A stretch of 52,366 nucleotides of DNA from a candidate division TA06 bacterium ADurb.Bin131. Its GTDB lineage: Bacteria > Ratteibacteria > UBA8468 > B48-G9 > DTJG01. Below are positions 211 through 40,183 of the stretch, piece after piece. The notes beneath the pieces were generated by a model that searched no databases, had not been told where the DNA came from, and saw only the letters and a list, made by a program, of their open reading frames with translations. Each line of letters begins with the position of its first letter. Position 1 is the first letter of the stretch. The DNA is taken from positions 1 through 52,366 of the forward strand of contig MWDQ01000025.1 in the NCBI GenBank assembly GCA_002070645.1. Reading direction: 5' to 3'. The position numbers and the translations under genes were made by a program.

Positions 211-885
211 TTATTCTCCCCAGCTAGATCGTACGTTATCATCGAGGGCATCGGCAATATTTACGCAATCTCCTGTCTCAGTACATGCGACATTTACGCC
301 ATCAGCAGGTCCATTTACTAATTTACCGTGGCCATTGTAAACCGCATAGACAACCTTTGGTTCAAGTACCCACATTGTTGATCCATCGAGATATTGTACA
401 TTCATTCCAAACCTATGGTTTCCATAACCCTCCTCAGGAGGATCAAAGTCAGACCTAACAAATATTCCCTTATCGCTTATTACAGGTACAGGATTAGGGC
501 ATTTATTTCCTACTGTTAATCCAAAGACGAATGAATAGGAATTATTCCAGTTTGAACTACTAATCTTATCAGGTGACCTGATACCTCTTGATATTGTTGA
601 TGGACACCAGAATGTCTGGGGGGTTTTGATAAAATCAGGATAGATGCAGGAATATATCTCAGATGCTCCTGCAGGATATCTTTCAAAGTGATCTTCTGCA
701 AACATTTCAAATGCAACCATTATCTGACGTAGGTTATTAAGACAGGTTGTTCTTCTTGCCCTTTCTCTTGCTCCTGCTATTGCCGGCAAAAGCATTGCTC
801 CGAGCAATGCTATGATTGCTATAACAATGAGTAGTTCAATAAGTGTAAACCCATTTTTTTCAAGATGTAATTTTTTTCTATTCAA
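211..885 (-). CDS. Prepilin with H-X9-DG motif
   Basis: Secreted pilin or pseudopilin subunit of 224 residues. The leader ends KNG and is followed by [17 protein letters not shown], so prepilin peptidase should cut after Gly12. The C-terminal half contains His, nine residues, then Asp-Gly ([12 protein letters not shown], around residues 157-168), the signature of the H-X9-DG prepilin family that is expanded in Planctomycetes, Lentisphaerae, Verrucomicrobia and Omnitrophica. Four Cys (in LNNLR- and WCPS-type contexts and near the C-terminus) suggest disulfides outside the cell. The start is TTG at 883-885: a strong AAGGAGGAGGAGG ribosome site sits just upstream, and no ATG occurs before the leader. 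The start overlaps the 3' end of pilC by 8 bp, which implies translational coupling. Confidence 0.9.
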
Positions 886-2191
886 CGCCTCCTCCTCCTT
901 CGCCCCCTGATAAACTCATGGCTATCTTTATCAAAGGCATAAACAATGAAATAACAATAAATCCTACTACAACACCAAGACATACAATCAGGATTGGTTC
1001 GAGCATAGATGTCATTGCTGCAACAGCAGCATCAACCTCTGCCTCATAGGCATCTGCAACCTTTTCGAGCATTGAATCCATTGCACCTGTTTCTTCACCC
1101 ACAGCAATCATGTTTGTTACCATTGGAGGAAATACCCCTGTTCGCAGCATTATGCCTGATATTCCCTCGCCTTCTCTGACCCTGTTGCGGACCTCGTTTA
1201 TAGCATTGGCTATAACCTCGTTCCCAACAGTATCTCTGACAATCTGAAGCGATTGTAGTATTGGCACTCCACTTGTTATCAGTGTTGCAAATGTTCTTGC
1301 AAAACGGGCAATAATTGTTTTTGATATAACAGGTCCAAATACAAGAATCCGTAGTTTTACCTTATCGATAAGATACCTTGTAACCTTAATCTTATTTGCA
1401 ATTCTGAAAAGAATTATAAGAGCAAAAACAAATGCGACAATCAGATAAGAACGTTCTGCAAGAAGTTTTGACATCTTAATCAGAAGTAATGTTGCACCTG
1501 GAAGGTCTCCAACCTCCATATCCTCAAATATCTTTGTAAATGTAGGGACAATTTTAATCATTATGAATGATAGGATACCAATCATAACAACAATAACCAC
1601 GCTCGGATAAGCCATTGCTGATTTTATCTTGCCTTTAAGTTTTGCTTCTTTTTCCATAAACTCTGCAAGACGGCTTAAAACAGATTCAAGGGCTCCTCCT
1701 GCTTCTCCTGCTTTAACCATTGCGACGTATATTCTCGGGAAACTTGATGGAAATTTTGCAAGTGCCTCGGAAAAAAGGGCTCCCTGCTCTATTTCTGCTG
1801 CTACCTTGTTGAGAATTTTTGCAGCACCGCCTTTTCTCTGTTGTTCAAGGACCTTTAATGCCCTTAATAAAGGAAGACCTGAACCAATAAGCGTTGCGAG
1901 CTGGCGGGTAATAACCGTTAGTTCTTTTGGTTTTATTTTGTTTCCACCAAGAAATGGAATGTTTATACTGATTCCACCGCCTGATGATTTTTTTTGGGAG
2001 GTTGTTTTCTTGGCTGGTTGTTTTGCTGATGTATCCTTGATTTTTTGACCTGATTTTCCAGCAACAATACTGGTTATGTAATAGCCCATATTTTTCAATT
2101 TGCTGATTGCATCCTGTGAATTTGCCGCATCAATAGTGCCACTTACTGCTTTTCCGGATGCATCAAGCCCCGCATATTGAAAATTGGCCAT
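878..2191 (-). CDS. pilC: Type IV pilus inner-membrane platform protein PilC/GspF
   Basis: PilC/GspF family platform protein (437 residues), which anchors the assembly ATPases to the membrane and organises pilin insertion. Residues 1-45 ([20 protein letters not shown]...) form the N-terminal domain typical of this family. A Lys/Ser-rich linker (about 45-75) leads to two repeated GspF cytoplasmic domains, each with the pattern LxxGxPLL...VxxGxxFSEAL...MVxxGExxGxL, at about 90-185 and 290-390. Membrane segments are visible near 197-215, 248-265 and 398-420. The C-terminus is Gly/Glu rich. AAAGGAG precedes the ATG. It is flanked by the second PilB-like ATPase upstream and the prepilins downstream in one operon. 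Confidence 0.95.
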
Positions 2192-2270
2192 TTTTTACTC
2201 CTTTTCTCTTATTACTTACTCTCTCCTTTTCCCTTATTTATATTACCTTTTATTCTGAAATATGTAAATA

Positions 2271-3995
2271 TTATCCGTATCCGTGGACTTCCCTGATAAT
2301 TTCTTCTATGGATGTAATCCCGAGATTAATTTTTTCAATCCCATCCTGAACAAGTGTTTTCATTCCACATTCACCTGTGGCAATTTCTCTTATCTCGCCA
2401 AGAGGCTTTTTTTCGAGAACACATCTCCAGAGGTTTTCATTCGGGATAAGAATTTCAAATATCGCAACCCTTCCCTTATAACCACCTCTACAGAATGGAC
2501 AACCTACTGGTTTATAGAATTTCATTTGTTCAGCCACCTCATCAGAAATACCAAGTTCAATGATTTCCTGTTTTGTGGGTCTATATTCTTCCTTACATCT
2601 TGAACATAAAACCCTTACAAGCCGCTGAGCAATAATACCACCTATTGTTGACGCAAGGAGAAATGGTTCTACCTTCATATCCACAAGTCGCATTATTGTT
2701 GTTGGTGCATCATTTGTATGGAGCGTGCTTAAAACAAGGTGTCCTGTAAGGGATGATTGTATTGCCATCTGCGCTGTGTCAAAATCACGGATTTCTCCAA
2801 CCAGAATAATATCAGGGTCCTGACGAAGAATGCTTCTTATACACGCAGCAAATGTTAATCCTATGCTTTCCTTAACAGGTACCTGAACTGCTCCGTCAAG
2901 CATATATTCAACAGGGTCTTCTGTTGTAATGAGTTTAACCTCAGGGGTATTAAGTTTTCTTAAGAGTGCATAAAGAGTTGTGGTTTTTCCACAGCCGGTT
3001 GGTCCTGTTGCAAGAATAATTCCGTGCGGTCTGTGGATAAGATTTTCGACAATGTCCATTTCTTCCTTCAAAAGACCGAGATTTTCCATATCAAATATTG
3101 TTTTCCCTCTATCAAGAACACGTATTGCTAGGCATTCTCCAAAAACAGTTGGTACAGTATTCACACGTAAATCCACTGGTCTTCCCATAACAGAAAGTTC
3201 AATTCTACCATCCTGGGGTAATCGCCGTTCAGCAATATCCATTGAGGCCATAATCTTAAACCTGCAAAATAACGCAAAGGAAAGCCCTTTTGGAGGATGA
3301 ACCATGTCGTAAAGTACGCCATCAACCCTGTATCTAACCCTGAAGTCCTTTTCAAATGGTTCGAGGTGAACATCTGAGGCATTGTCTCTTACTGTCTGAA
3401 GAAGGATAAGGTCAAAAAGTTTCACAACTGGTGGCAGTGATGCTATTTCTTCTAAGCTTGTGATGGTCGCATATTCTCCATGTCCTGAGGCGAGTGTTTC
3501 GAGTTCTTCCATTTCAGACATATCCTGAGAAATCCACTTGATAAGGTCATCAATGGTTTCCATTTCAGAACCATAATAAACATTTATATTTTCTTTGATA
3601 TCTTCTTCATCTGCGAGGACCATTTTTATTTTATACCCGAGAATAAAGGATATATCATCCTGTATGTTCAAACTTAAGGTATCACCAACCGCAAGTGTCA
3701 GTAAATTTTTATCAAGTTTTATCGGCAAAACATTATATGTTTTTGCGAGGGCAGAGGGAAAGGCACTTATGGCATTTTTATCAATAGGTGTATTTTTTAA
3801 GTCAATCATTTCAATGCCTGATTGAGTACTTAGGATTTTTTTTAGGTCTTTTTCACTGACATATCCTTTTTCAACAAGAATTCTTCCGAGAAATCCGCCT
3901 GACTTTGCCTGTTCCTTCAGGGCTTCATCAAGTTCTTTCTCTGTTATAAGGCCTGCTTCAATCAGCATCTCTCCGAGAAGTTTTCTTTCAGCCAT
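2271..3995 (-). CDS. GspE/PilB-type assembly ATPase
   Basis: Cytoplasmic hexameric ATPase that powers pilin polymerisation (574 residues, normal for full-length PilB/GspE). Residues 1-135 are the MshEN/GspE N-terminal domain (LLGEMLIEAGLIT...LLEKGYVSEKDL pattern). The ATPase core has Walker A GPTGCGKT at 331-338, an Asp box/Walker B DPDIILVGEIRD near 393-404 and the His box GHLVLSTLHTND at 418-429. A zinc-binding tetracysteine (C464, C467, C499, C502) follows. It is the second such ATPase in this operon, starting 3 bp after pilT. Having both suggests either two filaments sharing a platform or a specialised extension motor; which is the main PilB cannot be told from sequence. Confidence 0.95.
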   Translation of the reverse strand: MAERKLLGEMLIEAGLITEKELDEALKEQAKSGGFLGRILVEKGYVSEKDLKKILSTQSGIEMIDLKNTPIDKNAISAFPSALAKTYNVLPIKLDKNLLTLAVGDTLSLNIQDDISFILGYKIKMVLADEEDIKENINVYYGSEMETIDDLIKWISQDMSEMEELETLASGHGEYATITSLEEIASLPPVVKLFDLILLQTVRDNASDVHLEPFEKDFRVRYRVDGVLYDMVHPPKGLSFALFCRFKIMASMDIAERRLPQDGRIELSVMGRPVDLRVNTVPTVFGECLAIRVLDRGKTIFDMENLGLLKEEMDIVENLIHRPHGIILATGPTGCGKTTTLYALLRKLNTPEVKLITTEDPVEYMLDGAVQVPVKESIGLTFAACIRSILRQDPDIILVGEIRDFDTAQMAIQSSLTGHLVLSTLHTNDAPTTIMRLVDMKVEPFLLASTIGGIIAQRLVRVLCSRCKEEYRPTKQEIIELGISDEVAEQMKFYKPVGCPFCRGGYKGRVAIFEILIPNENLWRCVLEKKPLGEIREIATGECGMKTLVQDGIEKINLGITSIEEIIREVHGYG

Positions 3996-3998
3996 TTT

Positions 3999-5141
3999 TT
4001 ATTTTACCTTTTGTTCATCTTCTATATCGAGACTTTCGCCATATTTTTTCGATGCAAGTTTCTCATCAATTAGACCTTCAGCAGCAAGTTGTAGTTTAAC
4101 CTGTTCAGGGTCCTGGCTATAAATCATAACAGTTTCAAATGATATCTTTCCTTCTCTGAATAATCTCATCAGGTATGCATCAAGCGTAATCATTCCCATC
4201 TTCATACCTGTCTGAATATCTGAAAGAATTCTGTATGTTTTTCGTTCACGAATAAGGTTTTGTATAGAAGGGGTTACAATCATAATCTCAAATGCAGCAA
4301 TCCTTCCTGGTTTATCAACCCTATTAAGAAGAAGTTGTGATATGATAGCAAGTATTGATACAGAAAGCATAACCCTAATTTGTTCTTGTTGCGCGACAGG
4401 GAATACATTTACCATTCTATCAATGGTTCGGGTTGAACCTGTTGTATGGAGTGTGCCAAACACAACGTGTCCTGTTTCAGCAGCAGTAATTGCGGCTTCA
4501 ATTGTTTCAAGGTCTCTTAATTCCCCAACAAGGAATACATCAGGGTCCTGTCTTAGACCTCTTCTGAGCGCCTCTGCAAACGAAGGAACGTCAACACCTA
4601 ATTCTCTTTGTGTAACAATTGAACGTTTGTGAAAATGATAATATTCAATAGGGTCTTCAATTGTAATAATATGTCGGTCCATATTTGCATTCATATAATC
4701 AATCATAGACGCGAGTGTTGTTGTTTTTCCTGAACCAGTGGGTCCTGTAACAAGCAATAGACCGCGCGGTCTTGTTAAAAGATATTTCATTGTTCTTTCT
4801 TCAAGACCCAACTGCTCAAAGGTTAAAAATTTATATGGTATTAATCTTAATGCCATTGCAATATGACCGCGTTCCTTAAAAACAGAAACACGAAATCTGG
4901 CTATGTCCTTAAATGCAAAACCAAAATCAGTTCCACCGACCCTTTGAAGTTCTTCCTGGTGTTCTCTTGATGTTATTGCCTTCATATAATTAACAGTGTC
5001 TTCAGGTGTAAGGGGTTCTGAATCCATCTTTACCAATCCTTCGTGCTGTCTCATCATTGGTGGTAGCCCAACATTTATGTGCAGGTCTGCAGCATTTTCT
5101 CTAACAATCATTTCAAGCAGTTCTTCAATTGGTTTTGCCAT
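3999..5141 (-). CDS. pilT: Pilus retraction ATPase PilT
   Basis: PilT family ATPase (380 residues) that depolymerises type IV pili, giving twitching motility, surface sensing or DNA uptake. The N-terminal PAS-like part (MAKPIEELLEMIVRENAADLH) is short, as in PilT and unlike PilB. Walker A GPTGSGKT is at 133-140, the Asp box IEDPIEYY near 161, Walker B DPDVFLVGELRD near 199-210 and the His box GHVVFGTLHTTGS near 224. The C-terminal IQNLIRERK resembles the AIRNLIRE motif needed for retraction. There is no tetracysteine zinc site, another PilT trait. 3 bp separate it from each neighbour. Its presence says the filament encoded here is a retractable type IV pilus, not only a type II secretion pseudopilus. 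Confidence 0.95.
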   Translation of the reverse strand: MAKPIEELLEMIVRENAADLHINVGLPPMMRQHEGLVKMDSEPLTPEDTVNYMKAITSREHQEELQRVGGTDFGFAFKDIARFRVSVFKERGHIAMALRLIPYKFLTFEQLGLEERTMKYLLTRPRGLLLVTGPTGSGKTTTLASMIDYMNANMDRHIITIEDPIEYYHFHKRSIVTQRELGVDVPSFAEALRRGLRQDPDVFLVGELRDLETIEAAITAAETGHVVFGTLHTTGSTRTIDRMVNVFPVAQQEQIRVMLSVSILAIISQLLLNRVDKPGRIAAFEIMIVTPSIQNLIRERKTYRILSDIQTGMKMGMITLDAYLMRLFREGKISFETVMIYSQDPEQVKLQLAAEGLIDEKLASKKYGESLDIEDEQKVK

Positions 5142-5144
5142 ATA

Positions 5145-6857
5145 TCATTCCTCTTTTCCAGCAACTTCAATAACCTCTTGAAGTGTTGTCATTCCAATTT
5201 TTACCTTTCTAAATCCATCTTCTCTCATTGTTGACATTCCCATTCTACGCGCTTCTTTTTTTAGTTCTTCAGCTGTTACCCTTCTCATTGCGAGGTCTCG
5301 CAGGGTATCCGTCATAACAAAAATCTCAAATACAGCGATTCTACCAGTAAAACCAGTAAAATTACATTCAGGGCATCCCCTTGGTTCATATATTGGAACC
5401 TTTTCATCTTCCTTAATATTCAGAAGTTGTTTTGCTTGATCATCTGGTTCCACAGGTTGTTTACAGTATTTACATAGAACCCTTACAAGTCGTTGCGCCA
5501 TAACCCCCTGGACAGATGATGCTACAAGGAAAGGCGGAACGCCAAGATCAATAAGACGGTTTATTGCGCTGGGCGCGTCATTTGTATGAAGAGTACTAAA
5601 AACAAGATGTCCTGTAAGAGCTGCACGCAATGCAATATCCGCTGTTTCGAAATCACGGATTTCTCCTACAAGTATTACATCCGGTGATTGACGCAGGAAT
5701 GCTCGAAGAACAGAGGCAAAAGTAAGTCCTATTTCAGGCCTTACCGGTGTCTGGTTTATTCCAGGTATTTGATATTCAACAGGTTCTTCAACTGTCATCA
5801 GTTTTTTGTCAATTGTATTCAGTTTTTTTAGTGAAGCATAAAGGGTTGTTGTTTTTCCTGAACCAGTTGGACCTGTTACAAGAAGAAGCCCCCCAGAATA
5901 TCTAAGAAGGTTTTCCCATACCTTTCTGTCTTCTTCCATAAATCCCAGTTGCTCAAGGTCTTTGAGCGCTGTTGTTTTGTCGAGGATTCTTAGAACAAGA
6001 CTTTCCCCATAAATGCCGGGAAGTGTTGAAACACGAAAGTCAATTGGCTTACCTCCTATATCAAGCATTATCCTTCCATCTTGAGGGAGTCGTTTTTCAG
6101 CAAGGTCCATTTTTGACATAAGTTTCACACGGGCAATTACCGCTCTTTCAATTCTCTTTGGAGGACTGACAACCTCATAAAGAACGCCATCAATTCTGAA
6201 CCTTACCCTGAATCTTTTTTCAAGTGGTTCAAAATGTATATCACTTGCCCTTCTTCGTAATGCTTCAACAAATACCAGGTTAACAATCTTTACAACCGGC
6301 GCCTGAAGTGCAAGGGCCTCTTCATCCTCATCTGTCAGAATTTCTTCATCTTCAAGTGATTCTATGGTATCAGCGCTTCCGACCTCCTGTAACATCGCGG
6401 AAAGGTCCTCCATATCCTGTTGTTCAAAATATTTTGCTATTAACTGGTCTATTTCGCCTGGAAATGTAACAATTATTTCAATGTCATTGGGGATATTAAG
6501 AACCTTTTTGAAATAATCACTGGCTATAATGTTTATGGGATCGTCTGTAACGAGAACAAGTTTTTGGTCTTCTCTAATTTCCCATGGTATAATTCTGTGT
6601 TTTTTTGCAAAAGATGGAGATATAAGGTTTATTACATCAGGAGGAATTTCTCTCAGCGGCAGGTTTTGTTGAACAATTCCGAGTTGAAAAAACAATGTTG
6701 CGGGTATATCTCCAAATGGTAATAATCCCATATTCTGGAATATTTCCTTTAGAGGTCTATCCGTGGTTTCTTGTTCCTGTAGCGCTTTCTCGATTGCCTG
6801 TTTATCCCAGAGACCAATATTTTGAATTATTGTTGTAATTTCTCTTTTAGTAGGCAT
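5145..6857 (-). CDS. pilB: Type IV pilus extension ATPase PilB
   Basis: First gene of the pilus operon: PilB/GspE ATPase of 570 residues. It has an N-terminal MshEN-like domain (1-140), an acidic linker at about 149-185 (rich in Glu and Asp), the C-terminal ATPase with Walker A GPTGSGKT at 329-336, Walker B SPDVILVGEIRD, His box GHLVFSTLHTND, and the tetracysteine pair CKYC / CPEC for zinc. I call it pilB because it leads the operon next to pilT; the other full-length ATPase (2271-3995) is a paralogue. The start ATG lies only 8 nt after a good -10 box, and there is no Shine-Dalgarno sequence, so the transcript may be leaderless. Confidence 0.95.
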   Translation of the reverse strand: MPTKREITTIIQNIGLWDKQAIEKALQEQETTDRPLKEIFQNMGLLPFGDIPATLFFQLGIVQQNLPLREIPPDVINLISPSFAKKHRIIPWEIREDQKLVLVTDDPINIIASDYFKKVLNIPNDIEIIVTFPGEIDQLIAKYFEQQDMEDLSAMLQEVGSADTIESLEDEEILTDEDEEALALQAPVVKIVNLVFVEALRRRASDIHFEPLEKRFRVRFRIDGVLYEVVSPPKRIERAVIARVKLMSKMDLAEKRLPQDGRIMLDIGGKPIDFRVSTLPGIYGESLVLRILDKTTALKDLEQLGFMEEDRKVWENLLRYSGGLLLVTGPTGSGKTTTLYASLKKLNTIDKKLMTVEEPVEYQIPGINQTPVRPEIGLTFASVLRAFLRQSPDVILVGEIRDFETADIALRAALTGHLVFSTLHTNDAPSAINRLIDLGVPPFLVASSVQGVMAQRLVRVLCKYCKQPVEPDDQAKQLLNIKEDEKVPIYEPRGCPECNFTGFTGRIAVFEIFVMTDTLRDLAMRRVTAEELKKEARRMGMSTMREDGFRKVKIGMTTLQEVIEVAGKEE

Positions 6858-34602: not shown

Positions 34603-35655
34603 ATGAATGTAAAAAAAGGTCTTTTTTCAGATGATTTTGTTTTCTTTAACCAGCAACTTGTTAATCTACTAAAAACAAACCTTCCTATTGTTCCTGGATT
34701 GCGACATCTTGCAAAAGACATAAAAAAGAAAAATCTTTCTTCAGTTATTAATAGTATTGCAACAGACATTGAATCAGGTAAAACAATAACTGAGTCATTC
34801 TCGCGTTATCCTGATTTATTTCCATCTGTTTATATTGCAATGATAAAGGCAGGAGAATCTTCAGGTAGGTTGCCAGAGATTCTTCAGGACCTTGCAATAT
34901 ATTCAGAGAAAATGAATAAACTGCAGAAAAAAATTAAAGAGGTTATGATTTATCCTGCAATTCTTCTGGTGGCGGGCATTATTTTAGGTTGTTTCATTGT
35001 TGTGAATTTTGTTCCCTCCTTTTTAGAATTTCGTGATTTTCTACCATCAGGAAGAATACCAAAATTTTTTACTTTTCTTGTATTTTTATATAATCACTGG
35101 ATTAAAGTCCTTGTTGCTATTATTCTGGTTGTCGGTGTTTTTTTCATTGCCAAGCATTTTATAAAACGTAAGATGAGTATTTCTCTGGAAAAATTTTCTT
35201 TTCGTCTTCCACTGTACGGAAAAATTCTGCGGTATGCATCCTTATCAAGATTTGCAAGAAATCTTGCGATGTTGCTTTCTTCCCATATTTCTCTTCCTGA
35301 TGCCTTATGTATGAGTGGGCCATCTTCTGGAAGTGTTCAGATTAATTCTGCTTCTGATGAGATGCAACGCTGGGTTTCTGGGGGCAAGAGATGGACGGAT
35401 ATTCTTTTTAATTACCCGATTTTTCCTCATATCTTTGCCTGGACAATTAGCGTCAGTGAGAAAAAGGGTGATCTCGAGGAAGGACTTTTCTATCTGGCAG
35501 ATTTTTATGATCACGAGTTTGATAGACAGATAGACATTTTTATCCATTTTATAGAACCAATCATAATTTTGTGCATAGGTCTACTTGTTGCTGTAGTTGC
35601 TATACTGGCTGTTAGAGCCGGGATCAGCGGTATTTTGGGCGTTATGTATTCTTGA
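34603..35655 (+). CDS. GspF/PilC-family platform protein, first of a tandem pair
   Basis: Inner-membrane platform protein of a type II secretion or pilus system (350 residues, without the N-terminal domain seen in the other GspF proteins of this window). The first GspF domain (about 10-110) has FNQQLVNLLKTNLPIVPGL, SGKTITESFSRYPDLFP and MIKAGESSGRLPEIL. Membrane helices lie near 115-140, 165-185 and 315-340. The second domain is poorly conserved. It begins a run of seven co-directional genes on the plus strand. The 9-bp gap to the next gspF suggests the two proteins form a hetero-platform. Confidence 0.88.
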   Translation: MNVKKGLFSDDFVFFNQQLVNLLKTNLPIVPGLRHLAKDIKKKNLSSVINSIATDIESGKTITESFSRYPDLFPSVYIAMIKAGESSGRLPEILQDLAIYSEKMNKLQKKIKEVMIYPAILLVAGIILGCFIVVNFVPSFLEFRDFLPSGRIPKFFTFLVFLYNHWIKVLVAIILVVGVFFIAKHFIKRKMSISLEKFSFRLPLYGKILRYASLSRFARNLAMLLSSHISLPDALCMSGPSSGSVQINSASDEMQRWVSGGKRWTDILFNYPIFPHIFAWTISVSEKKGDLEEGLFYLADFYDHEFDRQIDIFIHFIEPIIILCIGLLVAVVAILAVRAGISGILGVMYS

Positions 35656-35664
35656 TTCATTGTT

Positions 35665-36879
35665 ATGTATAAATATCTTGGCAGGCAACAGAATGGACAT
35701 CTGGTCAAAGGCAGGGTCTCATCTAAAAGTATTTTTGATGCCCTTGAGCAAATCAAGAGCAAAGGTATCAGTCCTATTGCGATTGACCGTGAATTACGAT
35801 TTCTTGATTTAACTGTCAGAAGCAGGGCAACCCCATCATCAGATCTTATTTTCTTCGCTCGTCAACTTTCATCATTCCTTAAAAAATCCTTTTCTCTATC
35901 AGAATGTTTGATTTTAATTTCTGCTGATATGGAAAGAGCTCCTCTGCGCGAGGCATTGTTTAATGTGGCTGAAGATATTGAACGCGGAGAATCTTTCAGT
36001 AATGCCCTTTCAAAATATCCTCTTGTATTCCCACAGGTTTTTACTGGAATTATTTCAGCCAGTGAAAAAATTGGCAGTTTATCAACAGCCCTCGATATAT
36101 CAGCGGAATTTTTTGAAATAGAAGAAAAACTGCATAATAAATTTAAGGCCAATATTCTGTATCCTGGAAGTTTTCTTTTTCTCACTATAGTTGTTTTTCT
36201 CTGTATTGTTTCCTTTATGAAGTTTAAGATATTTCCTGTTTTTACCTGGCTGATAAACGATATTAAAGGATTAAATGTCCCCACATCCTTTAACCAGACA
36301 TCATTTAATCCACAGATATTGCAGGTTACTTTATGGGTATCAGCGTTTTTTATAGGAAGTATTTTTATCTGCACAATCATTCACTTTTTAACGAGGAAAA
36401 AACACCTATTCCAAAGGATTTTTTCTTGCCTGCCACCCATTGGTTCTATAAGAAATCAGGCACAGATATTGAGTTTTCTTCGAATTCTCGGGGAAATGAT
36501 AAAAACGAATTTTCCTTTGGATTCTGCTATTGAGAATTCATCCGCTGTGCTTGATAATAAAGGAAAAGCCACTGCTGATAGGGCTATCCAGATTCTCAAG
36601 AACGGAGGAACAGTTTCAGATGCATTTGAATCTATGAAAATATTTTCTGATTCTGAATTATGGTTTATAAAAACAGGTGAAAAGTCAGGAGGAATTGATT
36701 GGTCCATTACAAATCTTATTAGATTTAGAGAAACAGATCTTGAAATGAGGATTGGTATTTTTGCTTCTATTATACAGCCACTTTTTATTTTTGTAGGGGG
36801 GCTTTATGTCTGGATTACCTGTAGGGTGGTTTTTGGCTCATTGATAGATGTTGCCAATAGTATTATTGAAGGAATGTGA
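35665..36879 (+). CDS. GspF/PilC-family platform protein, second of a tandem pair
   Basis: Second platform protein (404 residues). It keeps the short N-terminal domain (MYKYLGRQQNGHLVKGRVSS..., about 1-45) and has two GspF domains (LIFFARQLSSFLKKSFSLSECL ... and LSFLRILGEMIKTNFPLDSAIE). Transmembrane helices are near 170-190, 225-245 and 370-390. It is divergent from its tandem partner, so the pair is not a recent duplication. The gene ends next to the GspE ATPase, its usual partner. Confidence 0.88.
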   Translation: MYKYLGRQQNGHLVKGRVSSKSIFDALEQIKSKGISPIAIDRELRFLDLTVRSRATPSSDLIFFARQLSSFLKKSFSLSECLILISADMERAPLREALFNVAEDIERGESFSNALSKYPLVFPQVFTGIISASEKIGSLSTALDISAEFFEIEEKLHNKFKANILYPGSFLFLTIVVFLCIVSFMKFKIFPVFTWLINDIKGLNVPTSFNQTSFNPQILQVTLWVSAFFIGSIFICTIIHFLTRKKHLFQRIFSCLPPIGSIRNQAQILSFLRILGEMIKTNFPLDSAIENSSAVLDNKGKATADRAIQILKNGGTVSDAFESMKIFSDSELWFIKTGEKSGGIDWSITNLIRFRETDLEMRIGIFASIIQPLFIFVGGLYVWITCRVVFGSLIDVANSIIEGM

Positions 36880-36880
36880 T

Positions 36881-38158
36881 ATGCTGATGAGAAAAAAGAA
36901 GTTATCAGAGAAAACACAGAGGAAGACCGACTATCTCGAACGTGCCTATACGCCTGATGAATTACAAAGAGAGAAGGACATTTTACTTTCAGATAAAACA
37001 AATGGTATTGAATCAGTAGTCGACCTTCTTATTTCTCAGGCAGTTGTAAGGCAGGCAAGTGATATTCATTTTGAGCCTCATATAAATGAAGTTTCTGTTA
37101 AATACAGGATTGATGGAATGATGTATCCTGTTGCTGATCTTCCTGTGTCATTAAAAGAAGGATTGCTTATGAGGATAAAGGTACTTTCTCATCTGATTGT
37201 GTATAGAAGAGATATTCCTCAGGATGGAAGTATTCATATTTCGGGTCAACCTATTGAATTAAGGGTTACAACATTTCCAACAATATATGGAGAAAAGGCG
37301 GTTATAAGAATTCTTGATTCACGTAATATCAGGTTTAAACTTGAACAACTTGGCTTCTCTCAGGATATTAGCAATACCCTCGAGAATCTTATACTAAAAC
37401 CTCAAGGCGTGCTTCTTTTAACAGGTCCTGCAAATAGCGGAAAAACAACAACGCTGTACGCCTGTATTCAGAAAATACTCGAAAAGCGGCCTCTGTGTAA
37501 TATTATTACCCTCGAGGATCCCGTTGAATATACATTTGGAAACATAAGCCAGACACATGTCAATTCAAATGCCAGTTTTACTTATGCAGATGCTCTACGT
37601 TCAATTTTGCGGCAGGATCCAGAAGTAATCCTTGTTGGAGAAATCAGGGATGAAGAAACAGCCAGGATGGTTATGGAGGCGGGTCTTACCGGGCACCTTG
37701 TTTTAACAACAATTCATTCAGGCAGTGCAGTAAGCGTTTTTGTTCGATTGCTCGAGATGAATATAGAACCATTTCTTCTTTCCTCAGCAATTTCAGGTGT
37801 GATTAACCAGAGATTGGTAAGGAAGGTATGTCAGTCCTGTGCAGTTGAGTATTTGCCTTCACACGATATTCTTAGCCGGTTAAAACTCTCAGATAATTCA
37901 TGGGTGTTTAAGAAGGGTAAGGGTTGTAACAATTGTTTATATCAGGGATATTCTGGTAGAACAGTTATCAGTGAGATGGTTCTAATGGATGATCGTCTCA
38001 GACAGTTTATACTGAAAAAACCCTCAATCTCACAACTAAAAAATCTTCTACAGGAATTAAACAATCGTACACTTGTTGATGATGGGCTTGAAAAGGTTAA
38101 ACAAGGAATAACAACACCTGAAGAGATTGACCGTGTTATTTTGGTTTCACAGACATGA
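36881..38158 (+). CDS. Short GspE/PilB ATPase of the second cluster
   Basis: Secretion ATPase of 425 residues from ATG 36881, chosen because GAAGGA stands six bases upstream; an in-frame ATG at 36848 lies inside gspF. The whole MshEN domain of about 130 residues is missing; only a short charged N-terminus remains. Walker A reads GPANSGKT (182-189) and not GPTGSGKT, with the essential Gly-Lys-Thr kept. Asp box LEDPVEY, Walker B DPEVILVGEIRDEET, GHLVLTTIHS and the Cys pairs CQSC / CNNC are present. It overlaps the first pseudopilin by 4 bp. Lack of the N-domain suggests a different contact with the cytoplasmic GspL-like partner, which was not found. Confidence 0.93.
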   Translation: MLMRKKKLSEKTQRKTDYLERAYTPDELQREKDILLSDKTNGIESVVDLLISQAVVRQASDIHFEPHINEVSVKYRIDGMMYPVADLPVSLKEGLLMRIKVLSHLIVYRRDIPQDGSIHISGQPIELRVTTFPTIYGEKAVIRILDSRNIRFKLEQLGFSQDISNTLENLILKPQGVLLLTGPANSGKTTTLYACIQKILEKRPLCNIITLEDPVEYTFGNISQTHVNSNASFTYADALRSILRQDPEVILVGEIRDEETARMVMEAGLTGHLVLTTIHSGSAVSVFVRLLEMNIEPFLLSSAISGVINQRLVRKVCQSCAVEYLPSHDILSRLKLSDNSWVFKKGKGCNNCLYQGYSGRTVISEMVLMDDRLRQFILKKPSISQLKNLLQELNNRTLVDDGLEKVKQGITTPEEIDRVILVSQT

Positions 38159-38544
38159 AAAATAAAACTGGATTAACTCTGATTGAACTGGTTGTAGCAC
38201 TCGGAATAGGGGTAATACTTCTTGATTCAACCTATGAAGTGCTCTTAAAGGGTATTGCAGTATTGAATAACGCATATTCTATGCAGAGGGCAGCCGCTAT
38301 TGTAGAAAGTCAAATGGAAATTATCTGTTCATCTCCTTCTCTGTATGCTGAAAACGGTACCATTGAATTTTCCCCGGAAATAAAAGAAAAACTTAAATAT
38401 CTCCAGGGATGGAATGGAACCATAAATATCTCTGATTATCCTGAAAGAGATGGTTTAAAAATGATTGAGGTTTCACTTACCTGGCAGGAATCAACCAGAA
38501 ATGAACATTTTAATCTTATAACATTAAGAAAAAATGAAAAATAA
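38155..38544 (+). CDS. Pseudopilin, GspI-like
   Basis: Minor pseudopilin (129 residues). Prepilin cleavage site KNKTG|LTLIELVVALGIGVILL, with Glu at +5. After the hydrophobic helix, the sequence YSMQRAAAIVESQMEIICS resembles the GspI pattern of a short helix followed by a beta sheet. It overlaps the ATPase by 4 bp and the next pseudopilin by 11 bp. The first 17 bases after its ATG are the same as in the next gene, showing conserved or duplicated leaders. Confidence 0.78.
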   Translation: MKNKTGLTLIELVVALGIGVILLDSTYEVLLKGIAVLNNAYSMQRAAAIVESQMEIICSSPSLYAENGTIEFSPEIKEKLKYLQGWNGTINISDYPERDGLKMIEVSLTWQESTRNEHFNLITLRKNEK

Positions 38545-39022
38545 AACTGGTTTTACCCTCATAGAAATGCTTGTTTATATTGCAATACTTATTATTACAC
38601 TGAACTTTGTTTTTCAGATTTACTATGGTTCTTTTGGAATTATAAAACGGAGTAATGTATACGCTGAATATCTCGAGGATGTTCAATGTTTTTCAGATAT
38701 ATTTGCCTCTGATGTAAGAAATGCATCTAAGATTCTTCCTGATTTTAAGGATTTCAAGACATCCCGGGATACCCTGGTTTTGATGAACCCAGATTCAGTT
38801 ATGGTTTATAAATTTTATAGAGAAAAGAAAGTTATCATAAAATTGAATATTTGTGATGAAAGTATTACCAGACAGGGACAGTGGTTTTTTTCAAATGTTC
38901 GTTTTGTTTACGATGTTTCTTCTCCTGATGTTATAAGGGTATATGTACTTCCTGATAATGATGGGAAAATTTTTAAGAATAGGGAATTTTTTCTTTGTGT
39001 AAGGAACAGAAATGAATCATAA
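38534..39022 (+). CDS. Pseudopilin, GspJ/GspH-like
   Basis: Pseudopilin (162 residues) with the prepilin leader MKNKTG|FTLIEMLVYIAILIITL. A long C-terminal domain begins with a Tyr/Phe-rich segment (FQIYYGSFGIIKRSNVY) and includes FVYDVSSPDVIRVYVLP, a beta-rich globular part as in GspJ. It overlaps its neighbours by 11 bp on each side. GspH is an alternative; I have not seen a decisive motif. Confidence 0.75.
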   Translation: MKNKTGFTLIEMLVYIAILIITLNFVFQIYYGSFGIIKRSNVYAEYLEDVQCFSDIFASDVRNASKILPDFKDFKTSRDTLVLMNPDSVMVYKFYREKKVIIKLNICDESITRQGQWFFSNVRFVYDVSSPDVIRVYVLPDNDGKIFKNREFFLCVRNRNES

Positions 39023-39416
39023 AAAAAAGGGAGCCGCACTTATATGTGTTGTGGCTTTTCTCGGGTTTCTTTTAGTGCTCAGTTTTTCACTCACAGCCAA
39101 CATAGGGATGGCATGGAGTAAGATAAAAAAAGGAGAATTTTCAAAAATGGCTTTCTGGCTTGCTGAGGCAGGTATGCAAAAAGCACTTCTCGAATTAGAA
39201 GAATATGGGGATATCTATTCCGGGGAAGAGATGCTTCTTGGCGAAGGTAGATGTATGATTTCTATTACGAAAAACGAGGATGATACATTTCTTATTTTTT
39301 CTACTGGGGAGGTTGGTACACCACCAGCAAAAAAAACAATTGAAGCAACCATTTCGCTCGGACAAAACAGGAATTCATCTCATACAATAGAGGTAAAACA
39401 ATGGAAGGAGGAATAA
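39012..39416 (+). CDS. PilX/GspK-like minor pilin
   Basis: Protein of 134 residues that starts MNHKKKGAALICVVAFLGFLL: a KKG cleavage site followed by a helix of the PilX/GspK kind (no Glu at +5, as is usual for these tip subunits). The segment AFWLAEAGMQKALLELEEYGD matches the AEAG(M/I)xxAxxxL signature of PilX_N. In contrast to true GspK (over 300 residues) it is very small and lacks the large alpha domain. It follows the GspJ-like gene with an 11-bp overlap. Confidence 0.75.
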   Translation: MNHKKKGAALICVVAFLGFLLVLSFSLTANIGMAWSKIKKGEFSKMAFWLAEAGMQKALLELEEYGDIYSGEEMLLGEGRCMISITKNEDDTFLIFSTGEVGTPPAKKTIEATISLGQNRNSSHTIEVKQWKEE

Positions 39417-39889
39417 TCCAACAAATACTTGATATTGTTTGCTCATGTCTTCTTATTTTTATATGTGCAGTGATTGTTTTTTTCTATATTTTCTCTATTG
39501 GTATGTTGATGGATGCATGGAGGCATGCAGAGACATCGTGGTTTATTTTGCTTTCTATCGGTATTCTGGTTCCTTTTATGCTGTTTTTCATTGTTGGAAT
39601 TTTTGCTCTTTGTTCTCCATGTTTTATGCCTATCATGAGGGCAGAATTTCATTTCGGTGATTATGTTCCAATCGAACCAGGCCCGGGCTTCTTAGCAATT
39701 GCTTTATTTCTTTTCTTTTTATTTCTTTTCTTTTCTTTTATTATCTTACCCCTTATTTTCGGCTTTGAGTATTATCGTAAGAAATATGCATCAATATACA
39801 ACATCAGGAGAATGAAGAAATTACTGGTTGTGTGGTGTGGCACAGTTGCTCTTCTTCTGGTTTTATTTTTCAAATTTTATTATAAATAA
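39401..39889 (+). CDS. Small hydrophobic protein with about four membrane helices
   Basis: Unrecognised 162-residue integral membrane protein. Predicted helices: about 8-33, 44-70, 95-118 and 137-157; a basic stretch (EYYRKKYASIYNIRRMKK) precedes the last one, which fixes its likely orientation. There is no known motif or enzyme signature. It overlaps the PilX-like gene by 16 bp and is the last gene of the pseudopilus cluster, so it may be a membrane partner of that machine. Its reading frame has clear start and stop; codon use resembles its neighbours. Confidence 0.7.
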   Translation: MEGGIIQQILDIVCSCLLIFICAVIVFFYIFSIGMLMDAWRHAETSWFILLSIGILVPFMLFFIVGIFALCSPCFMPIMRAEFHFGDYVPIEPGPGFLAIALFLFFLFLFFSFIILPLIFGFEYYRKKYASIYNIRRMKKLLVVWCGTVALLLVLFFKFYYK

Positions 39890-39912: not shown

Positions 39913-39937
39913 TCTTGACAAAATCTAAAACGGTTAT

Positions 39938-40183
39938 AGACCTATATGGGTTGAATACGAAGAAACAGTGTATCATATTTATGCAAGTGGTAACGAAAAA
40001 GGCGCAATATTCAGAAATAATGATGACTGTCTTATTTTCATCCAGACACTTACAGAATCTGTGCGCCAGCACGGGTTGGTTGTTCACGTCTATTATTTTA
40101 TACCAACCGCTGCTATCCTGCTATATGAACGTCTAGGGAAAATTTGTCAAGAGTTGATTCCTTTTGGAGAAAGGTATTGCTAA
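39938..40183 (+). pseudogene. Degenerate RAYT/IS200-like (Y1) transposase fragment
   Basis: Frame from 39938 reads RPIWVEYEETVYHIYASGNE (first 20 residues), then KGAIFRNNDDCLIFIQTLTE, which is the typical N-terminus of REP-associated tyrosine transposases (RP..IEY.GA.YH...RGNE...IF...D...F...L). About 80 residues remain to the stop at 40181-40183. The following MPNHxHLL block, with the His-x-His metal site, has decayed to IPTAAILL, and the catalytic Tyr region is missing. There is no start ATG. The element is therefore inactive and old. Confidence 0.75.
40146..40161 (-). repeat. Right inverted-repeat copy within the RAYT relic
   Basis: GTCAAGAGTTGATTCC; its first 12 bases are the exact reverse complement of 39901-39912. 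It interrupts the transposase frame near its decayed active site, about 235 bp from the left copy. This may be the end of an internally deleted element. Confidence 0.55.

Follow-up and report, generated by a model that had tools for sequence, protein, structure and literature searches.

A probable minimal type IV filament module with two platform proteins in a candidate division TA06 bacterium

The window analysed here comprises positions 1 to 52,366 of contig MWDQ01000025.1 (forward strand) of the candidate division TA06 bacterium ADurb.Bin131 (assembly GCA_002070645.1), and at 34603–39889 it carries a cluster of seven plus-strand open reading frames (ORFs), six of which resemble parts of type IV filament machines. 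The first two encode platform proteins of the GspF/PilC type. F1 (34603–35655, +; 350 aa) has two T2SSF domains, no N-domain, Tyr-Pro in transmembrane segment 1 (TMS1) and Glu-Pro in TMS3, and F2 (35665–36879, +; 404 aa), the second and diverged platform, has an N-domain, two T2SSF domains and Gln-Pro in TMS3. Pfam T2SSF matched two stretches each in F1 and F2 (E 7.6e-47 and 1.8e-38), and the platform of the type IV filament superfamily is thus represented by two GspF/PilC proteins. The third gene, E (36848–38158, +; 436 aa), encodes a GspE/PilB-type ATPase in which Walker A, Walker B and the CxxC pairs are present and an MshEN/N1 domain is absent; its start codon is uncertain, with an overlap of 32 bp with F2. 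The Pfam T2SSE match of this protein (1e-109) identifies it as an extension ATPase of the superfamily. MshEN did not match it at E ≤ 1, whereas both PilB-type proteins of the same window were matched.

The next three genes encode minor pseudopilins of the I type (38155–38544, +; 129 aa), the J type (38534–39022, +; 162 aa) and the K/PilX type (39012–39416, +; 134 aa). I and J have N_methyl above the Pfam cut-off, as expected of class III signal pilins, and Glu at +5. K, which had no Pfam match and was assigned by homology, lacks both Glu at +5 and a large alpha domain and has a conserved Trp near its C-terminus. No ORF is broken, and the packing is tight, every gap within the cluster being either 9 bp or an overlap. 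The initial annotation had listed GspF, GspF, GspE and I-, J- and K-like proteins together with a four-helix protein, and all six of the former are intact genes. The last one (39401–39889, +; 162 aa), which overlaps K by 16 bp, encodes a protein with four hydrophobic segments, no Pfam match and no assigned family; since it had no homologue in the 60 other genomes searched and no counterpart was seen in the five related clusters, its membership of the cluster is doubtful.

A scan with residues 1–191 of the window E returned 19 loci, two of which have tandem F genes: L159, from a Candidatus Hydrogenedentota genome, with F, F, a short E, I, J and K followed by a DUF1559-type pilin, and L164, from Planctomycetota, in which E, F, F, I and J are followed by a K cut off by the end of the contig. 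A profile of the three E proteins, for which four candidates per genome were scored in 386 genomes and 11 regions were then examined over their full length, gave five outliers above 480 bits in addition to the window; three of these were in G173 and one each in G240 and G310, and the next matches lay at 477 bits and below. In G240, locus L208 reads F0-F1-F2-E-I-J-K, with a third F in front. In G310, locus L209 has ECF-like genes, F1-F2-E-I-J-K (its I gene was located in the E–J gap) and a DUF1559 pilin, and L212 (contig C12 of G173) has the same arrangement. In all, the module, i.e. tandem F genes and an E of one clade with I, J and K after them, is present in six loci including the window, K being only begun in L164, and in at least 4 of the 386 genomes, window included.

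F1 and F2 are adjacent in 6/6 loci, two T2SSF stretches are present in 5/5 F2 relatives tested, and MshEN matched neither the window E nor any of the five other module E proteins. The gene order F1-F2-E-I-J-K is far above chance. A conserved order, which the initial annotation had suggested looking for in Omnitrophota-like genomes, is seen here as F-F-E-I-J-K in L159, L208, L209 and L212 and as the variant E-F-F-I-J with the start of K in L164. Within the limits of sequence comparison, the content and order of the module and their conservation in six loci are established. Since bacteria that are only distantly related carry this gene set as well, we regard the module as a real, apparently undescribed form of a known kind of machine and not as a leftover. 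As a control, 74 distinct pairs of neighbouring E and F genes were inspected, own-genome and family loci being left out; at least 500 bp is visible beyond F in 49 of the pairs, and a second F beside the first was seen in none.

In three loci, genes for an ECF sigma factor and a zinc-finger/anti-sigma protein lie directly before the module (L159:1757–2907, L212:160–1223 and L209:5539–6819, the last by resemblance only), which suggests that the module may have a dedicated regulator. In L208, a 243-aa secretin-domain protein, shorter than full secretins, is encoded at 2384–3115, two genes upstream of the module F genes. G173 carries three E copies of the clade (L210, L211 and L212), two of them with no tandem F in view.

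A careful E tree (42 rows) placed the module E proteins, six in number, together with five further rows in an 11-row clade (bootstrap/SH-aLRT 100/100), in which the window E grouped with L208 and the Hydrogenedentota-type rows (96/81); the quick trees agreed. These comparisons establish, at the sequence level, a common ancestry of the module E proteins. One clade of the careful F tree (96/81) contained 11 of the 12 F1 and F2 proteins, with the window F2 beside the F2 of L159, L209 and L212 (89/76), and the quick F tree placed all 12 in one set (support 99). Because they share one clade, the trees favour an old duplication within the family, with F1 and F2 as diverged, full-length paralogues rather than two unrelated platforms, although the branch lengths call for care. 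For one of the quick E trees, 89 background E rows were thinned to 55 by shared 4-mers and 25 were added; for the careful E tree, PilT-like or long rows were removed by name pattern and 26 background rows were drawn at random. The careful F tree, from which L125 and the duplicate L130 were left out, was brought to 42 rows by thinning and a random draw. No named Com or MSH (mannose-sensitive haemagglutinin) reference is among the tree rows. The short E genes of the same phylum (L091–L096), considered as relatives, belong to other E groups and have no tandem F.

PulF has been modelled as a homotrimer with a Y168/E370 pore (PMC10790770). Of 75 other platforms, 65 have the corresponding TMS3 Glu-Pro; among the ten that do not, nine are members of a lone short F family and one carries Gln-Pro. 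In the module, this pore-lining Glu is absent from 11/12 platforms, and only the window F1 has Glu-Pro; the window F2 has Gln-Pro and the remaining platforms carry other residues, with the Pro kept in all. In addition, the TMS1 Tyr is kept in 12/12 module platforms, and the TMS1 Pro in 6/6 F1 and 2/6 F2. Since a single E370C substitution in PulF is tolerated, while the Y168C-E370C pair is not (PMC10790770), loss of the TMS3 Glu alone need not abolish function. For F2, the best match in the 386-genome search had 28% identity, and a scan of the genome contigs matched 57 stretches, none of which was confirmed as a close relative.

The lone short GspF-like protein is itself conserved in the phylum (L021:1263–2324, on contig C63 of the window genome, and L119–L129 in relatives), with no ATPase nearby. 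Its neighbours in the genus are genes that we read as YggS-like and MFS-like. A lone short F relative, of the group without the TMS3 Glu, directly precedes F1-F2-E-I-J-K in G240 (L208:3703–4653).

The pseudopilins follow a common pattern in the related loci. Glu at +5 is present in I and J in 6/6 loci and absent from K in all five complete K proteins, which also have in common a Trp near the C-terminus; GspK-type tip pilins typically lack Glu at +5. The window K has 37% identity to that of L208 over 134 aa (E 2e-17) and the window J 32% (E 2e-15), both E values being from a small database. The K proteins of L208, L209 and L212 gave weak NCBIfam GspK matches, far below the cut-off. In the K model (pLDDT 72.7), the N-terminal helix is bent and the sheet has five strands; the model aligns best with minor pilins (ComZ, Z 10.4; Streptococcus sanguinis PilA, Z 10.3; an XcpGHIJK chain, Z 9.5). 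Against sequence profiles of the PDB, K had no match under E 0.38, and J matched on its N-terminus only.

A DUF1559 (H-X9-DG type) pilin lies directly after K in three of the five readable cases (L159, L209 and L212). Those of L209 and L212 have PF07596 and N_methyl above the cut-off, and that of L159 was assigned by homology (46% to that of L209). Because of this position, the DUF1559 pilin is the likely candidate for the missing major pilin of the module. The initial annotation had noted the lack of a major pseudopilin, which is true of the window cluster and apparently not of the system; DUF1559 pilins are encoded elsewhere in the genome. One such gene (211–885, –) lies beside type IV pilus motor genes of the window (PilB, PilT, PilB and PilC, 878–6857) and is a candidate major pilin in trans, and three more are on contig C138. 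In Planctomycetes, DUF1559 pilins have multiplied to dozens in a genome, with 68 paralogues, two of them essential, in Planctopirus limnophila (PMC10632474). Plim_0410–Plim_0401 of that species is described as comprising four genes for type II secretion and six that occur in Planctomycetes only (PMC10632474). No assembly machine for them is named in the sections of PMC8567305 and PMC10632474 that our literature search covered.

The other absent parts were sought in the window genome (G000; 2,034,527 bases in 153 contigs, about 93% complete), in which the window lies on contig C25. Genome-wide searches for secretins (PF00263), A24 prepilin peptidases (PF01478) and GspG (PF08334) gave no match on C25, as the initial annotation had read from the cluster. 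GspC, GspL and GspM, which it had also reported missing, had no match among the seven ORFs of the cluster, in a comparison without family-specific searches. Elsewhere, there are two secretins on C138 and one on C112, GspG matches on C138, C80 and C147, and a single A24 match on C49, which supplies the prepilin peptidase of the superfamily from outside the cluster. T2SSF domains are encoded on C25, C125, C138 and C63, and E genes on C125, C25, C138 and C52, with further ones on C129 and C150 that we read as PilT-like. C138 reads as a type II secretion system (T2SS), with D, E, F, G, I, J, K and L-like genes (those from I to L were assigned from gene order and N-termini) and a second secretin, and C112 carries PilM/N/O-like genes and its secretin. 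Thus there is a candidate elsewhere in the genome for every part missing from the cluster, as judged by sequence. Given the T2SS on C138, the three secretins, the other E and F genes and the one peptidase match, borrowing is possible. The C138 locus (L020) has, further on from its two secretin genes, three tandem genes for DUF1559-type pilins, two of which were tested by Pfam.

Taken together, these results suggest that the cluster is probably the window representative of a minimal, conserved module for type IV filament assembly, F1-F2-E-I-J-K, with a two-protein platform and with the pilin, the peptidase and possibly a secretin in trans. This fits the earlier proposal of a minimal machine that borrows parts, for which the C49 peptidase, the C138 and C112 secretins and the pilin at 211–885 would be available. 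In such a machine, an E hexamer would drive a mixed F1-F2 platform, of presumed stoichiometry, in place of a single GspF. I, J and K would form a tip that primes the filament, the shaft would consist of a DUF1559 pilin from another locus, and the C49 peptidase would process the prepilins. Since E has no N1 domain and the cluster has no C, L, M or secretin, the filament most likely has its anchor in the inner membrane and is short or periplasmic, or else uses a secretin of C112 or C138. GspL is the partner of the E N1 domain in the T2SS, and the lack of that domain agrees with the absence of GspL.

The module shares GspE, GspF and I/J/K-type tip pseudopilins with the T2SS, but the window cluster has no GspC, D, G, H, L or M (GspC, L and M as judged from the matches of the seven ORFs), and GspD and GspG, expected in a T2SS locus, have no PF00263 or PF08334 match on C25. 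A review of the field counts a single platform protein among the core components of all type IV filament machines and lists Tad, with two half-size ones, as the exception and the one class with two platform proteins (PMC10191384). Two platform proteins are likewise found in the window module; however, TadB and TadC have one domain each and arose by gene fission, whereas F1 and F2 have two domains each and apparently arose by duplication, and the TadA-family model gave the window E 30 of 373 bits.

Several observations weigh against this interpretation. Five of the 11 members of the E clade were not seen with tandem F genes: L183 has a single F, no F is visible at L181/L210, L192 and L197, and L211 starts at a contig edge. 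In the careful tree, L164_F2 lies outside the F clade and has a very long branch, and the branches of F proteins are long in general. Neither the window cluster nor L208 is adjoined by a DUF1559 pilin, so that the shaft pilin is deduced from three other loci. The K model had no PDB match at E ≤ 0.001 in Foldseek, and the J model (pLDDT 48.5) was unusable. Finally, the module is present in only 1 of 35 genomes of the phylum and is thus dispensable there.

Alternatively, the module might be an accessory to the type IV pilus at 878–6857, providing another motor and tip for the same pilin and the C112 secretin, rather than an independent machine. The shared contig, the pilin at 211–885, the PilM/N/O-like genes and secretin on C112 and the single peptidase are all consistent with this; however, congeners have PilB-PilC-pilin genes without the module, and the modules of three relatives have their own pilin after K, and we consider an accessory role unlikely. 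It is also rather improbable that F1 and F2 do not act together, with F2 serving another motor or regulating F1. F2 evolves fast and has lost the TMS1 Pro in 4/6 cases, but the constant adjacency of the two genes and the two cytoplasmic domains of both proteins argue for joint action.

The initial annotation had held that a complete T2SS elsewhere, with its own E and F, would make the cluster a known MSH or Com-like one. That T2SS exists on C138, yet the cluster is not thereby MSH or Com, because its E lacks the MshE N-terminal domain and its E and F scores are well below the cut-offs for ComGA (E, 238.7 against 300 bits) and ComGB (F1, 121, and F2, 88, against 240 bits). The Com pilus of monoderms (ComGA–ComGG) is the smallest known type IV filament machine, with pilins, peptidase, ATPase and platform only (PMC10191384). 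The window cluster recalls it in its minimal content without secretin or MNOP proteins, its short E, an F1 without N-domain and a weak ComGF match in J (E 5e-4). Conversely, it has two platforms where Com has one, and no ComGC-like gene; a Com-like or MSH-like cluster of known type is accordingly very unlikely. That a larger T2SS or pilus locus is decaying here, as the lack of a major pilin, the rarity in the phylum, the rearranged neighbourhood and a broken frame downstream would suggest, is equally hard to credit when the six ORFs are intact and overlapping, their motifs are kept and their order is the same in other loci.

On the preferred reading, a conserved module with a two-protein platform, the cluster is no isolated oddity but belongs to a small family of two-platform filament modules that apparently has no description yet; our literature search (open-licence PMC papers) found no description of such a module or of a DUF1559 assembly machine, and the "generic" systems of PMC6668835 could include a two-platform type. 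More tentatively, and with the balance somewhat against it, the modules might constitute a class of their own among type IV filament machines, seen so far in Hydrogenedentota, Planctomycetota and other lineages, with a hetero-oligomeric platform mostly without the pore Glu, dedicated to assembling DUF1559 pilins. DUF1559/SBP_bac_10 (H-X9-DG) pilins of Planctomycetes are of the type that adjoins the module in the three relatives, and this link, if true, would provide the first machine for a large pilin family. How platforms oligomerise and transmit force to pilins is an open question in the field, and a natural two-protein platform, mostly without the pore Glu, would test the single-platform and the PulF homotrimer and pore ideas.

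In the phylum, E searches gave only paralogue-level matches, F2 reached at most about 27%, and there was no E-profile outlier except the window. The cluster is flanked by mtnA, as we read that ORF, on one side and a glutamate dehydrogenase gene on the other. In five congeners (G003–G007), mtnA is followed by a convergent operon, which we read from the sequence as phoU-pst genes, and no cluster is present; the G001 contig ends just after mtnA. The glutamate dehydrogenase gene has another context in the congeners readable there. These differing neighbours indicate that the region is rearranged, and gain here is indistinguishable from loss elsewhere. The GC content of the cluster (0.33–0.39) is that of the contig and gives no sign of recent transfer. 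Promoter and terminator scans of the cluster were at or below chance. On C80 of the window genome (L027), there is a row of pilin-like genes with no motor genes in view. Between the cluster and the next gene, at 39920–40160, a short broken frame with no Pfam match resembles a remnant of a REP-type transposase.

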